35,296 nucleotides of DNA, from contig JAIRTP010000103.1 of NCBI GenBank assembly GCA_031254805.1, positions 1-35,296 on the forward strand. The letters run 5' to 3'. Positions 196 to 5,444 of this stretch are shown here, in pieces. A program made the position numbers and the translations under genes. Position 1 is the first letter of the stretch; each line of letters opens with the position of its first letter. Origin of the DNA: Bacteroidales bacterium (lineage in GTDB: Bacteria; Bacteroidota; Bacteroidia; Bacteroidales; WRLA01). Below the pieces are notes generated by a model that saw only the letters and a program-made list of their open reading frames with translations, made no database searches and had not been told where the DNA came from.

Positions 196-2874
196 TTATT
201 TAGCAACTATAAATCGTCTATGAAATTTTTCTCCTGTTGCGGTTATTATTTCTAGAATATAGATATTTGATTTATAAGAAGATATATTAATAGCTATTTT
301 TCTCTCCTGTACTGATATTTGCTCTACTTTTTTACCAAATAAATCATAAATAGCAACCGTTTTAATTTTGTCTCCTTCAATATGCAAGATGGAGCTTGTG
401 GGATTAGGGTAAATGTTGATTTGCGATTCTAAAGCGTCTACTCCTTGAGGAGGAGCATAATAGCATTCAACATTAGATTTAGGCGACTCTATCCCCAAAG
501 GACAAATAGCGGTAACATAATAGCAATTGTCGATAGACGAATCGAAAGTATCATCGTCTACATAGGAAAACTGATAATTCGAAAGCAGTATTTCATCGTT
601 TCTATAGACATTATAGCGATAATCGCTTCCTGCATTTTCCCAAGAAACAAGTAATATTCGCTCCGAAACGACTTCGAGAGTTACTATGGGAATTTTTGTA
701 CACGAATGTCGATATTCAAACTCTAATACGGTTATTCGTCCATTTTCATCAGTCAAAATGAGTATTAGCGGAACGACGATATCTTCCAAATTGAAATCGG
801 CGCTTAACGATACGTTAAATGATCCTGAAATAACTTGATTATGTTCAAAATCGCCAAATTGAACGTCGGGATTATTAATAAGCAATCCCGACGAAGTCGG
901 CGTAGTGAGAGATCCCGTTATGCCGTGAGCAAATTCATTTCCGATATTTTTTATATAAATGATCATTTCTCCGGACTCGCCCGGATCCAGTTCGCCGTTA
1001 TCATTTCCATCTGTATCATTAATGGCAATATCCGTCTCAACCAATGCATAATCAAAAATGATAATATTGAAATAAGAGGTGGACACATTTTTTTCATCGG
1101 ATATTTCTAATGAAAAATAAATGCCTTTTCGGGGCGGCGCATCTTGGGAAACGATAAACTTGAAAGCTTCTTCTATGTTCGCAATATCTCCTGCTGGAAT
1201 AGTTCCAACATTCACGTTATCGGTAATCATAGAAATCCATGGGCTGTTTGATGATATTTTTGCAGTAACTCCTGAAATTTCTTCGGCTGATAGATTTTTT
1301 AAATTAATATAGAGATCAATTGTTTCGCCTGGATTTATTTTTCCATTATTATTTCCTTGGGCATCGTCAATCGTATAAGACTCTAAACTGATATCTCCTA
1401 TGGGAATTATCTCTAAAGCGGCTAATGCGTCGACGCGCCCTGAACCGTACATATTATTCTTGGATTCGGAGAGAGGTTTGGCCGTTACTTCAAGTATTTC
1501 GCTAATTTTAGCGGGCGACAAGTTAGGATTTTTTGAGAGCATTAAGGCCATAACGCCTGCGACGCCCGGAGTTGCCATCGAAGTTCCGCTCATGTAAACA
1601 TAACCGGTATTACTATCATATTGTAACGACTTAATACTGACTCCCGGAGCGCAAACATCGGGGCGAATGAGTCCCATACCGGGATCTAATTCATAATCAT
1701 TGAATCCGGTAATATGTTCCCAAGTTACCGGCCCTTCAGATGAAAAATAAGCGAGTACGTCTTTGTCGTCGGTTGCGCCTACGGCAACAACGGCGGTTAA
1801 TCCTCCTTGAAGAACTTGATCGGGGTGTAACCATGGCGGCGGACAATTTCCGGGAAGCCGTACATTGTATGGCGCGGGTAATTCATCGTTAAGGTATTCC
1901 CGCTCGTTTCCTGCGCCTACAGAAGCTATAACGCCGGCTTCTAATGTATTAATTAATGCGTTACGGAATAAGATCCTGTCGCTTTCTTGTCCTCCTGCCA
2001 GCACTCCGAATGACATGCTCAAAACATGCGCTCCATGTTCAACAGCAAATTCAATGCCTTCGCACATTACGCTGACCGATCCGCTGCCTTCATCGCTCAT
2101 GATCTTTATCGCCATGATCTTGGCATTAGGCGCTATTCCCGTTTGAGAACCCGAAGCTCCTTGTCCGGCGACTGTTCCGGCGCAATGCGTTCCATGACTG
2201 TGATCGTCCATGGGATCGTTGTCGCGATTGATAAAATCATATCCATGGTATGGATAATCGGGATGTTCCCACATATTGCCTTGTAAATCAGTATGATTAT
2301 AATTGACGCCAGTATCTAAAACAGCGACAATAATTCCTTCGCCCGTATAGCCAAGCTCCCATACCGCGTCTGCGTTGACTTGCGTAATATTATAGGTTAT
2401 TTCATTATTGTTCTTTGCGGGAGAAGGAATTTCTCCGTCAAACAAAGCGTTCTCTACTTTATTATAGCCGATAAGTAAGATATCAGGATGCAGAGAAATT
2501 TGCTCGATCGCTTCGGGCGTCGCATAGCAATTTATAGCATTTGCAAGCCACAACGTCTTGACTTCCATTATTTCTTCTTCTGGAGAAAAAGTTAACAAGT
2601 CGAGAACGCTCCGTTGGCTTTCTTCGGAAAAACGTTTGAGTTCATTGATCACAAAAGCTCGTTTAGCCTCTTTTGTTTGAAAAACATCGGACTTGCTCCG
2701 CATTTCAAACTGATCATATTGCTTATTCAGGATGATATTAATCCAAATTTTTTCGTTGCTTTTTGAAGCGGACATTTTTTGCTGAAGCGATTTTTCAATT
2801 TTGGAATAATCTTGCGCTTCTACAATGTGGCATGTGAGAATTGTAACAAGAATCAGTAAAATTAATTTTTTCAT
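196..2874 (-). CDS. Secreted subtilisin-like (S8) serine peptidase with T9SS C-terminal sorting domain
   Basis: 892 residues from ATG 2874; a longer frame to 2916 only adds residues before an evident signal peptide (MKKLILLILVTI, ending near residue 20). Residues ~25-160 look like a pro-region. The S8 catalytic domain (~175-490) has Asp187 (VAVLDTGV), His227 (HGTH), oxyanion Asn323 (AGN) and Ser432 (GTSMATP), so the triad is complete. Two Ig-like segments follow, each opening with a D-x-x-x-N-x-N-G-x-x-[ND]-P-G-E loop (~503-517 and ~620-633), then a fibronectin-like segment with Cys pairs (~725-805). The end (~815-892) is a type A T9SS sorting domain (IYPNPTSS, then an FG-type turn and RRFIVAK). 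It should be exported by Sec, passed through the T9SS and anchored at or released from the surface. It is a clear paralogue of the gene at 29712-32381. The substrate is unknown. Confidence 0.95.
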   Translation of the reverse strand: MKKLILLILVTILTCHIVEAQDYSKIEKSLQQKMSASKSNEKIWINIILNKQYDQFEMRSKSDVFQTKEAKRAFVINELKRFSEESQRSVLDLLTFSPEEEIMEVKTLWLANAINCYATPEAIEQISLHPDILLIGYNKVENALFDGEIPSPAKNNNEITYNITQVNADAVWELGYTGEGIIVAVLDTGVNYNHTDLQGNMWEHPDYPYHGYDFINRDNDPMDDHSHGTHCAGTVAGQGASGSQTGIAPNAKIMAIKIMSDEGSGSVSVMCEGIEFAVEHGAHVLSMSFGVLAGGQESDRILFRNALINTLEAGVIASVGAGNEREYLNDELPAPYNVRLPGNCPPPWLHPDQVLQGGLTAVVAVGATDDKDVLAYFSSEGPVTWEHITGFNDYELDPGMGLIRPDVCAPGVSIKSLQYDSNTGYVYMSGTSMATPGVAGVMALMLSKNPNLSPAKISEILEVTAKPLSESKNNMYGSGRVDALAALEIIPIGDISLESYTIDDAQGNNNGKINPGETIDLYINLKNLSAEEISGVTAKISSNSPWISMITDNVNVGTIPAGDIANIEEAFKFIVSQDAPPRKGIYFSLEISDEKNVSTSYFNIIIFDYALVETDIAINDTDGNDNGELDPGESGEMIIYIKNIGNEFAHGITGSLTTPTSSGLLINNPDVQFGDFEHNQVISGSFNVSLSADFNLEDIVVPLILILTDENGRITVLEFEYRHSCTKIPIVTLEVVSERILLVSWENAGSDYRYNVYRNDEILLSNYQFSYVDDDTFDSSIDNCYYVTAICPLGIESPKSNVECYYAPPQGVDALESQINIYPNPTSSILHIEGDKIKTVAIYDLFGKKVEQISVQERKIAINISSYKSNIYILEIITATGEKFHRRFIVAK

Positions 2875-2994
2875 ATACAAGCTTAAATTTAATAAATTAT
2901 TTTGAACTAAGAACAACGATAATGTAGTTTTATTATATATGATCGATTTTTTAACGGATATATGTAAAAAAATGCTGTAAATAAGCCAACTCGG

Positions 2995-4047
2995 TTATGA
3001 TATTTTTTCTTTATGGCATACCAACGGATGCTTTTTCTCCCCATGCCAATTATGGAACCCATTTCCTTGGCAATCTTTGAAGTCGGAACAATGCGCGCAT
3101 TTTCCGGTTTTTGTCCATTTTCTGTTGCGAAATACATGAAATTTATTCTCCCACACTTCCATGAGATTATCTTGATATATATTTCCCTGCACAAAAGAAC
3201 GGTCTATATTTGGACAAGCGGAGATAGAGCCGTCAATCAAAATGGATCCGATATTAATTCCCGCCCTGCAAAAATAGTAACTGTCGCGCACTTTTGCTTC
3301 ATATTTACCCACATATCCTTCGCAACTGAACATAATATCGATTTCCGGATTTTGTCTTGTATGAACAATAAAATCCATTAATCCGACAAATTGACTATCG
3401 GTCAAAAAAAGCTCCGGGTGTTGTGTTGAACGTCCAATCGGAATGATAGTAAACAGCCTCCATGCTTTTACTTTTTTTTGGATAAGATAATCTCTTATTT
3501 GAGGGAGTTCGTCTATGTTTTTTTGATGGACGCAAGTTACAACGTCGAAATTCAGGCGAGAATAACTTGCCGCCAAAGCAATAGCGTTGTCTACTTTTTC
3601 GAAATTAGTTGTTGAATTTCGCATCCAACTATGCGTCGTTTTATTGCCGTCAAGGCTGATCGTCAAAGCTCCCATGCCAGCGTTTAATAACGCTATATGT
3701 TTATCTCTATCATATAGTTGTCCGTTAGTTACCATTCCCCAGCGTTTCTCTCGTTTTCGGATCTCTCTTCCGCACATTTCCAAATCATTGCGCAAGAGCG
3801 GCTCGCCACCGGTAAGAACGACGATTACATTGCCGACAGAAGGTTGTTTCACAGTGTCAAGAGCGGATAAAAAATCCTCTAAAGGCATATCGGGATGAGA
3901 ACTATCTTTGGAACAGTCGCTTCCGCAATGAAGACAATTCAAATTACATCGCGTAGTACATTCCCAAAAGAGATAATTCAGTTCATGATGTTTCGTCTCA
4001 AATTTTTTAAATTGCCGAAACGCCGCCTTTTTTATGATCGAGAGCAT
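2995..4047 (-). CDS. Radical SAM/SPASM enzyme of the rSAM/lipoprotein system (TIGR04133-like)
   Basis: About 350 residues from ATG 4047 (a TTG lies one codon upstream). Near residue 34 the radical SAM [4Fe-4S] motif reads CNLNCLHC (C-x3-C-x2-C), and a glycine-rich LTGGEPLLR follows, typical of SAM binding. The C-terminal third has many cysteines (including ACPNID, CAHCSDFKDC and a final CH), the pattern of a SPASM domain holding auxiliary Fe-S clusters. Such enzymes usually modify peptides or proteins by radical chemistry. The start lies inside the upstream lipoprotein gene with a 41-nt overlap in another frame, so the two are probably translationally coupled. This pairing matches what I recall as the TIGR04133/TIGR04134 rSAM-lipoprotein system of Bacteroidetes, whose reaction is, to my knowledge, not established. 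That the neighbouring lipoprotein is the substrate is inference. Confidence 0.88.
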   Translation of the reverse strand: MLSIIKKAAFRQFKKFETKHHELNYLFWECTTRCNLNCLHCGSDCSKDSSHPDMPLEDFLSALDTVKQPSVGNVIVVLTGGEPLLRNDLEMCGREIRKREKRWGMVTNGQLYDRDKHIALLNAGMGALTISLDGNKTTHSWMRNSTTNFEKVDNAIALAASYSRLNFDVVTCVHQKNIDELPQIRDYLIQKKVKAWRLFTIIPIGRSTQHPELFLTDSQFVGLMDFIVHTRQNPEIDIMFSCEGYVGKYEAKVRDSYYFCRAGINIGSILIDGSISACPNIDRSFVQGNIYQDNLMEVWENKFHVFRNRKWTKTGKCAHCSDFKDCQGNGFHNWHGEKKHPLVCHKEKIS

Positions 4048-4429
4048 CAACCTCTTCTAATTCTATGTTTAATAATATCTTTGTTGTATATATATTGGTT
4101 AAAACAGTATCTTTTTGTAAAAAATGTCCGTATTCAAGAGGGTTTATATCCTCGAATCGAACAGCAATGTGATCGTTCAATACAGTAAAAAATGAAAAAT
4201 TGCCATCCTCGTCGGAGACGGCACACGGTAATGTACCATAATAATCAAGATTACTTACGAAGACATTAATCCCTTGAACAGGCTCTCCGTTTGTTTTAGA
4301 TACGATTTTTCCATAAAGATAAATATCCAGTCCGTCATCTTGGGGCGTTCCGTAACAAGCTTGAAAAGCAAATAAAAGCGTCGCGAAACTTAATCCTCCC
4401 AGAAATTTTCTTAATCTATTTTTCTTCAT
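4007..4429 (-). CDS. Putative lipoprotein partner of a radical SAM enzyme (TIGR04134-like)
   Basis: 140 residues from ATG 4429, chosen because MKKNRLRK begins a normal signal peptide; an ATG at 4453 would add eight residues. The hydrophobic core ends in a lipobox (FQAC, Cys25), followed at once by YGTPQDD. The mature part reads like a carboxypeptidase-regulatory-type beta-sandwich: GKIVSKTNGEPVQGINVFV, then a turn SDEDGNFSF and the segment VRFEDINPLEYGHF. The YG-x-P motif after the lipid-bearing Cys and the V-x-F-x-D-I segment are what I recognise in the lipoprotein family that pairs with radical SAM enzymes in Bacteroidetes. It should sit in a membrane facing the periplasm or cell surface. 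Its frame overlaps the start of the radical SAM gene by 41 nt. A -7 element lies at 4451-4458. Its function is unknown. Confidence 0.85.
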   Translation of the reverse strand: MKKNRLRKFLGGLSFATLLFAFQACYGTPQDDGLDIYLYGKIVSKTNGEPVQGINVFVSNLDYYGTLPCAVSDEDGNFSFFTVLNDHIAVRFEDINPLEYGHFLQKDTVLTNIYTTKILLNIELEEVDALDHKKGGVSAI

Positions 4430-4450: not shown

Positions 4451-4458
4451 CAAAAATA
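4451..4458 (-). promoter_or_regulatory. Bacteroidetes -7 promoter element for the lipoprotein/rSAM pair
   Basis: The minus strand reads TATTTTTG, matching TAnnTTTG, 21 nt before the lipoprotein ATG at 4429. I see no clear -33 TTTG partner. The short leader suggests that the lipoprotein and radical SAM genes form their own transcription unit. Confidence 0.5.
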
Positions 4459-4592: not shown

Positions 4593-5444
4593 TTAGCTTG
4601 TTTCCTCAATTTCCTCCAGCTTCATCATCTTATCCGCTAAAATTCCTTTGGGCGTTTGATGTAGAGAACAGCATTCGATAAAAGGATCATGTTCAAAAAT
4701 GAGATAATAATCATTTTCAAGAGCTTCGTGTAGAAATCGTTCCTTTTCTTCCATAGTTATAAGCGGACGAATATCGTAAGCCGGTATATATGGAAGAGGA
4801 AGATGCGCCGCAGTTGCAATAAAATCTGCCACATAAGCGAATTTTTTTCCGGCGCATTCAATGATGGGAATGATCTGTCCGTCGGTGTGGCCATGAAACA
4901 TTTTAAAGTAAATACCTTCCGTAAAAAATCCTTCATCTTCGATAAAATGCAATTTTCCGCTCTCAAAAACCGGGTTTTGATTTTCGGGGATGAATGAAGC
5001 CGCTTCTCTCGGATTGGGATGCGTTGCCCATTCCCATTGCCGGCGCGAGAGCCAATATTGCGCGTTTGAAAAAACGGCGACCGCTTTACTCCCTGTTTCA
5101 TCCCATCGAAAAGCGCCTCCGACATGATCGTAATGCAAATGCGTAAATACCACGTCGGTCACATCTTCAAAGCAATATCCCGCTTTTTTAAACCCTTTTT
5201 CCAAAGATTCATCCCCGTGAAGATACCGAAATCCGTAAAATTTATCATCTTGCTTATTTCCCATGCCGGCGTCGAACAGAATCACTTTCTTTCCCGTGTC
5301 GACCAATAAGCAGCGGTTACATGTCGGAACGTTATTCAGTGCGTCCGGTCGATATATTTTGCTCCATATGCTTTTTGGAACGACGCCAAAAACAGTTCCT
5401 CCGTCGGCCATCCATCGTTCTGCTATGATTGGAAAAATCTTCAT
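4593..5444 (-). CDS. MBL-fold metallohydrolase, N-acyl homoserine lactonase-like subgroup
   Basis: 283 residues. The metallo-beta-lactamase signature HLHYDH is at residues 102-107, with further likely metal ligands at His184 (FHGHTDG), Asp207 (YVADF) and His252 (EHD), giving the full dinuclear zinc set. N-terminal LFDAGMGN and the overall length fit the lactonase-like group of the fold. There is no signal peptide, so it should be cytoplasmic. This group includes quorum-quenching lactonases, but many members act on other esters or thioesters, and nothing here fixes the substrate. It starts 32 nt after the holB stop and is the last gene of the long minus-strand run. Confidence 0.85.
   Translation of the reverse strand: MKIFPIIAERWMADGGTVFGVVPKSIWSKIYRPDALNNVPTCNRCLLVDTGKKVILFDAGMGNKQDDKFYGFRYLHGDESLEKGFKKAGYCFEDVTDVVFTHLHYDHVGGAFRWDETGSKAVAVFSNAQYWLSRRQWEWATHPNPREAASFIPENQNPVFESGKLHFIEDEGFFTEGIYFKMFHGHTDGQIIPIIECAGKKFAYVADFIATAAHLPLPYIPAYDIRPLITMEEKERFLHEALENDYYLIFEHDPFIECCSLHQTPKGILADKMMKLEEIEETS

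Follow-up and report, generated by a model that had tools for sequence, protein, structure and literature searches.

Comparison of related loci suggests a Tyr-Gly-x-Pro tag on lipoproteins encoded beside TIGR04133 radical SAM enzymes of Bacteroidales

Two overlapping genes on the reverse strand of the 35,296-nt stretch of Bacteroidales DNA analysed here (the window) raise the question of what a SPASM-type radical SAM enzyme does with the lipoprotein encoded directly upstream of it. The lipoprotein precursor gene occupies 4007..4429 (-) (ATG at 4429, stop codon at 4009-4007, 140 aa) and the enzyme gene 2995..4047 (-) (ATG at 4047, stop codon ending at 2995, 350 aa). Both open reading frames are present and share the 41 nt at 4007..4047 (-), as described in the original prediction, which had drawn attention to the CYG-x-P motif of the lipoprotein. 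Judged from the lipoprotein alignment, the overlap is a peculiarity of the window genome. The proteins of relatives end in EEK followed by the stop, and the window protein is 14 codons longer, so that the overlap is explained by a window-specific C-terminal extension. In the relatives, the median gap between the two genes is -1 nt. A TAnnTTTG sequence (TATTTTTG), possibly a Bacteroidota -7 promoter element, is located at 4451..4458 (-), 22 nt upstream of the lipoprotein start. The predicted -7 element is thus in place, but as evidence for a promoter of the pair's own it is weak, since the window holds 54 such copies against 39.8 expected by chance. The host assembly, 2.2 Mb in 127 contigs, contains one enzyme copy that exceeds the TIGR04133 cut-off (458 bits).

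The enzyme is a member of TIGR04133, with 458.4 bits against a curated cut-off of 425, and it also exceeds the Pfam cut-offs for Radical_SAM (68.0 bits) and SPASM (33.1 bits). Based on the alignment, the SAM [4Fe-4S] cluster would be bound by the CxxxCxxC motif (C34, C38 and C41; 3925..3948 (-)), which continues as G42-S43-D44-C45. In the SPASM domain (3016..3270 (-)), C260, C278, C317, C320, C326 and C344 are invariant. The full seven-cysteine SPASM pattern is incomplete, as the last cysteine of CX2CX5CX3C is replaced (CQGN) in TIGR04133 enzymes. These enzymes carry three extra cysteines, C45, C172 and C242, which are invariant or nearly invariant. C242 precedes a G244-Y-x-G247 segment (3307..3318 (-)) that, in the alignment, is common to the splicease-type clade discussed below.

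The lipoprotein scores 24.0 bits against TIGR04134 (E 3.2e-5), below the curated cut-off of 39.8, and was assigned to a related clade by its position and motif. Of the TIGR04133/TIGR04134 search proposed earlier, the enzyme half therefore gave a family match and the lipoprotein half did not. A genome search with the TIGR04134 model returned mostly unrelated CarboxypepD_reg domains and missed the window's own lipoprotein, whose CarboxypepD_reg score of 24.5 bits is below the Pfam cut-off of 32.2. The N-terminus, MKKN..LLFAFQAC25, reads as a lipobox by eye and by pattern. The protein is laid out as a predicted signal helix (residues 3-26) with the lipobox FQAC25, YGTP at 26-29, a domain at about 34-127 and a 14-residue run-on at the C-terminus. 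The structural model (mean pLDDT 85) contains the signal helix, a YGTP loop and a transthyretin-like domain, which matches the transthyretin-like domain of carboxypeptidase D (5aq0_A; Z 11.8, rmsd 1.9, 80 residues) and, in a SusC transporter, the NTE (9hfj; Z 10.9, rmsd 2.3, 80 residues). According to this layout, YGTP would lie in the linker between the anchor and the domain. The lipoprotein stretch at the proposed Tyr26 site reads AFQACYGTPQDDG; the codons of Tyr26-Gly27-Thr28-Pro29 (4343..4354 (-)) are, from conservation, the proposed site of both recognition and modification, where the X of X-Tyr-Gly is the lipidated Cys25. The search for invariant residues suggested in the original prediction gave a short list, as only A24-C25-Y26-G27, V56 and G76 are unchanged in the 21 aligned lipoproteins. 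Three more Tyr-Gly dipeptides occur in the window lipoprotein (residues 39-40, 64-65 and 100-101), mostly absent in the aligned relatives; they may be chance occurrences or additional sites.

Of the small genes neighbouring the enzyme in 88 related loci, only that of the YG lipoprotein is widely conserved, an adjacency that is therefore far above chance. The pair is a real co-conserved system, and the recurrence of TIGR04133-type pairs in relatives confirms the rSAM/lipoprotein system with a CYGxP element that had been put forward. An RRE (PlpY-like) gene was not found in the pair's neighbourhood among these 88 loci, where the lipoprotein is the only conserved small ORF, nor was any further gene, small or large, found to recur widely beside the pair in the related loci. 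The T9SS peptidase reported to adjoin the pair does exist, profile matches identifying an S8 subtilase with a T9SS type A sorting tail at 196-2916 (-), but it does not recur beside relatives and was rejected as a component of the system. The same applies to the MBL-fold hydrolase at 4593-5444 (-), which resembles a YtnP-type lactonase (163 bits, cut-off 425).

The conserved motif was examined in 82 radical SAM genes with an adjacent lipoprotein ORF, picked regardless of YG. The dipeptide is present in 77 of the 82 lipoproteins and the full YGxP in 70, in comparison with 23 and 1, respectively, of 192 background lipoprotein-like ORFs elsewhere in the same loci. A few adjacent lipoproteins are without YG (loci L102, L114 and L117). 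A DNA pattern coding for ACYGTP gave 37 matches in 393 genomes, while the same pattern reversed, used as a control, gave 24. A comparison of positions by hand placed 23 of the 37 at a distance of ~1 kb or less from a TIGR04133 gene, an excess over chance; the remaining 14 are no more than the 24 of the control. A second set, of 80 named loci, shares some members with the first; 65 of its loci have a YGxP lipoprotein, and several of the others are contig ends or carry variants such as CYGTM. The proline at +3 is sometimes replaced (CYGTD, CYGTL, KYGDI), and the x position is dominated by the beta-branched residues Thr and Val. Across about 170 related loci, this comparison suggests that the enzyme recognises a Tyr-Gly-x-Pro tag.

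Lipoprotein export signals lie at +1 to +4 after the lipidated cysteine, which is where YGxP is found in the window clade, with the cysteine directly before YGTP. The motif might on this account be a sorting signal for surface lipoproteins, unrelated to the enzyme. We consider this highly improbable, since the motif is nearly absent from lipoproteins away from the enzyme, lies anywhere from several to about 20 residues beyond the lipidated cysteine in classic-clade proteins, and is placed in C-terminal tails elsewhere. Because the cysteine is displaced in the classic clade, the constant element is YGxP and not CYG.

The motif is also independent of the fold that carries it, which makes it look like a substrate site. 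In lipoproteins without a transthyretin domain, YGxP occurs one to three times, in mid-chain or in a C-terminal tail (L063, L061, L122, L059, L119, L121). It is repeated in low-complexity or coiled stretches in L063 (KYGVP..KYGVP..KYGIP), L061, L122 and L220, and forms the tail in L059, L119 and L121, the last of which reads EIIALYGVP. The L198 lipoprotein has two transthyretin-like domains, with one YGxP ahead of each. In MAGs labelled Fibrobacter (L195, L199, L202), Ser-rich lipoproteins carry several YGVP, YGCP or YGPP motifs near a TIGR04133-like enzyme, with AIALYGVP within or after the Ser-rich stretches. The strict coupling of the genes would equally fit a lipoprotein acting as partner or chaperone to the enzyme, or one merely co-regulated with it, the substrate lying elsewhere and YGxP being a docking element. 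Such an arrangement appears unlikely, because the motif is tandem-repeated and shifted to tails in unrelated lipoproteins, two or three lipoproteins may serve one enzyme (L041, L042, L062, L195, L220) and no other conserved gene is found nearby. This is the pattern of substrates rather than of a fixed partner.

With the lipoprotein as the probable substrate, YG is very probably the target of the enzyme. Tyr, Asp and Cys side chains had all been named as candidates, and Tyr is the one favoured by the comparison, although as part of Tyr-Gly-x-Pro. Asp finds no support. Cys was rejected as a target of general validity, since classic-clade proteins have it at a distance from YG, and L116 (AQYGAP) and L157 (HAAYGM) have lost the lipobox cysteine but kept YG. 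The YYGTLPC segment (residues 63-69), also named, contains a five-residue insertion present only in the window protein among the 21 aligned. The L116 protein (L116:4152-4976 (-)), encoded directly downstream of a TIGR04133 enzyme, has a signal peptide, no lipobox cysteine and a mature start near QYGAP.

Which reaction might take place at this motif was approached through the relatives of the enzyme. The NCBIfam ranking of the window enzyme alone (NirJ2 119, TIGR04053 118, AhbD 114 and TIGR04103 98.9 bits) did not separate the families, and outgroup trees were therefore built. The second tree, which gained AhbD-like and NirJ2-like rows that score below the cut-offs of their own families and from which two long-branch rows were omitted, contains a branch with 100/100 support that parts 15 other SPASM rows, among them AhbD-like, NirJ2-like, NirJ and MftC, from the TIGR04133 and splicease-type rows, the splicease-type references being assigned by family and motif. 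The same branch has a support of 93/90 in the first tree. In a tblastn search with a classic TIGR04133 query, the next-best plasmid-borne proteins are of splicease type (149-122 bits), followed by NirJ at 95. In the reverse direction, a TIGR03913/TIGR04103-type enzyme of a Bacteroidota genome has TIGR04133 in third place among its best-scoring families, ahead of all the rest. Eleven alignment columns are common only to TIGR04133 and splicease-type enzymes, including G42, W196, G244-Y-x-G247 and R254, compared with four common only to TIGR04133 and the other SPASM rows. The TIGR03913 and TIGR04103 maturases are thus the nearest families outside TIGR04133 (tblastn, tree), and their precursors have YG as well. 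The window enzyme is nevertheless far below their cut-offs (725 for TIGR04103), and those precursors are small peptides, Nif11-like or DUF1843. At a Nostoc TIGR04103 locus, the Nif11-like precursor ends in SIALYGLPPELF, which is close to the NAIALYGVP of Fibrobacter and the EIIALYGVP of L121.

The enzyme of an Agathobacter rectalis plasmid (L127) groups with TIGR04133 in the second tree (84/78) and with the splicease-type rows in the first. It has the equivalents of C45 and C242 plus a complete CX2CX5CX3C. Just upstream of its gene (3031-4185) lies a small unannotated ORF (2743-2949) ending in VMYGTGVRM, likely an unrecognised precursor, and an MFS transporter is encoded downstream. A TIGR04103-like enzyme (L124; 353 aa, 245 bits) of a Bacteroidota genome (G205) has no evident YG precursor nearby.

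PlpXY of Pleurocapsa is a splicease that cuts tyramine (C8H9NO) out of X-Tyr-Gly and links the two ends, so that a ketoamide results (PMC10533398). Its natural sites are MYG and LYG, and one splice tag is GPIRPLYGLPI; a ten-residue tag is enough, the leader is not needed, and internal or terminal sites work (PMC10533398). PlpX belongs to the IPR026482 subclass of SPASM enzymes (PMC11002830). The present system resembles PlpXY in having a SPASM radical SAM enzyme and an X-Tyr-Gly with Pro at +3 (LYGLP there, C25-Y26-G27-T-P here), and in a short tag, independent of leader and position, with multiple sites per substrate (PMC10533398, PMC11002830). It differs in that lipoproteins, of which many contain a globular domain, are the proposed substrates instead of Nif11 or NHLP peptides, that the RRE partner (PlpY) is absent and that the auxiliary-cluster cysteines are altered. 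The IPR026482 subclass presumably corresponds to TIGR04103. The window enzyme falls outside the PlpX family as defined, and what is proposed is that it would work like PlpX.

We estimate at roughly 0.6 the probability that the enzyme acts on the lipoprotein at Cys-Tyr26-Gly27 as a protein splicease that needs no leader, or as an enzyme of very closely related chemistry. The chemistry, announced as unknown in the original prediction, is indeed unassigned for the family, but the YG motif and the phylogeny together point to tyramine excision of the splicease type, to which we give the same odds. The SPASM enzyme would bind Tyr-Gly-x-Pro just past the lipobox of the unexported lipoprotein, in the cytoplasm and before Sec export, and would generate a 5'-deoxyadenosyl radical. 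A tyramine unit (C8H9NO) would be removed from Tyr26, and the leftover tyrosine carbonyl would be joined to the preceding residue, Cys25, which would leave an alpha-keto-beta-amino (ketoamide) residue next to the lipid anchor. After export, the lipoprotein would receive its lipid and be anchored, displaying the transthyretin-like domain. As the site abuts the lipidated cysteine in the window clade, the modified precursor would still need to serve Lgt and LspA. A cytosolic SPASM enzyme that acts on a short motif of an export-bound protein is already exemplified by anSME, whose fold is similar to that of the window enzyme (Z 25) and whose mode of action resembles the one proposed here. It differs by its own motif, C/SxPxR, and by its product, formylglycine.

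The structural comparison leaves room for another radical SAM reaction at Tyr-Gly-x-Pro, such as a Tyr-to-x or Tyr-to-Pro C-C cross-link (cyclophane type), epimerisation, or hydroxylation or desaturation of Tyr. The enzyme model (mean pLDDT 88.9) matches ChlB, SuiB, CteB and anSME equally well (tied, Z 25-26, ~310 residues), and these fold neighbours, together with SkfB and PqqE, are peptide or protein maturases of several chemistries. No splicease structure appeared among the solved-structure matches, which counts neither for nor against splicing. The Fe-S ligand set, with one SPASM cysteine lost and C45 and C242 gained, is unlike that of splicease-type enzymes, and the chemistry could differ accordingly. 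The absence of Gly at x from the first 102 motifs would suit a Cbeta cross-link, but Gly was found there twice in the second set, and the dominance of beta-branched Thr and Val is awkward for such a bond. The invariant Gly, the match to XYG splice sites and the place of the enzyme in the tree also argue against a different reaction, which we regard as rather unlikely. Tyramine excision, the preferred reading, narrows a generic modification to one motif and one likely reaction.

NCBIfam types TIGR04133 and TIGR04134 as hypothetical equivalogs, and the descriptions shown give no chemistry. The window shares with this pair an enzyme over the cut-off, an adjacent transthyretin-like lipoprotein and the conserved gene pairing; it differs by a lipoprotein below the cut-off, from a distinct clade, with the lipidated cysteine directly before YGTP. 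In the literature searched, no paper names TIGR04133 or TIGR04134, and no paper linking TIGR04133 to spliceases was found within a scope that left out the main splicease survey (Scott 2022). A survey of Bacteroidales RiPPs mentions neither lipoproteins nor spliceotides (PMC10352776).

Among 393 genomes sampled from the window's order, 96 have the enzyme, which in 86 of them is over the TIGR04133 cut-off. It forms a classic clade, the window's clade (support 99/98 in the first tree) and a third, lower-scoring one. Named relatives with 65-70% identity to the window enzyme come from Prolixibacteraceae, Paludibacter and other Bacteroidales MAGs, and others are found in MAGs labelled Spirochaetaceae and Fibrobacter. 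The Treponema saccharophilum plasmid pTS1 carries a pair, with a lipoprotein reading SCYGMPEN. Two other genomes belong to the genus of the window; a classic member is present in the first of them and no member in the second. This patchy presence indicates an accessory system.

It is about an even chance that the splicease clade includes a large, previously unlinked branch whose substrates are membrane lipoproteins of Bacteroidota, Fibrobacterota and Spirochaetota, and which forms ketoamide beta-residues at YGxP without leader or RRE and with a rewired set of auxiliary Fe-S clusters. Roughly one in four genomes sampled from the window's order has an enzyme of this proposed branch. As TIGR04133/TIGR04134 are common in Bacteroidales, YG splicing, if true, would place an electrophilic beta-amino acid on many membrane lipoproteins, adjoining the lipid anchor in the window clade. 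Since the ketoamides of spliceotides act as protease inhibitors (PMC11117315, PMC10373908), the electrophilic ketoamide may serve as a covalent protease inhibitor held at the membrane by its lipid anchor, or otherwise as a reactive tag. The branch may also be a source of RRE-free splicing enzymes for protein labelling.

A more distant TIGR04133-like clade (L108, L109 and L110; about 220-247 bits) has no YGxP lipoprotein nearby in any of its three loci, and two of the three enzymes are without the full SPASM cysteine set. Two rSAM/lipoprotein pairs are arranged in tandem at L065:4545-7539 and L075:2760-5755, where the first lipoprotein reads CAKYGDIY, with no Pro. On the Treponema saccharophilum plasmid (L125:2797-3441), a serine invertase of the Mpi family adjoins the lipoprotein/rSAM pair, which might indicate phase variation.
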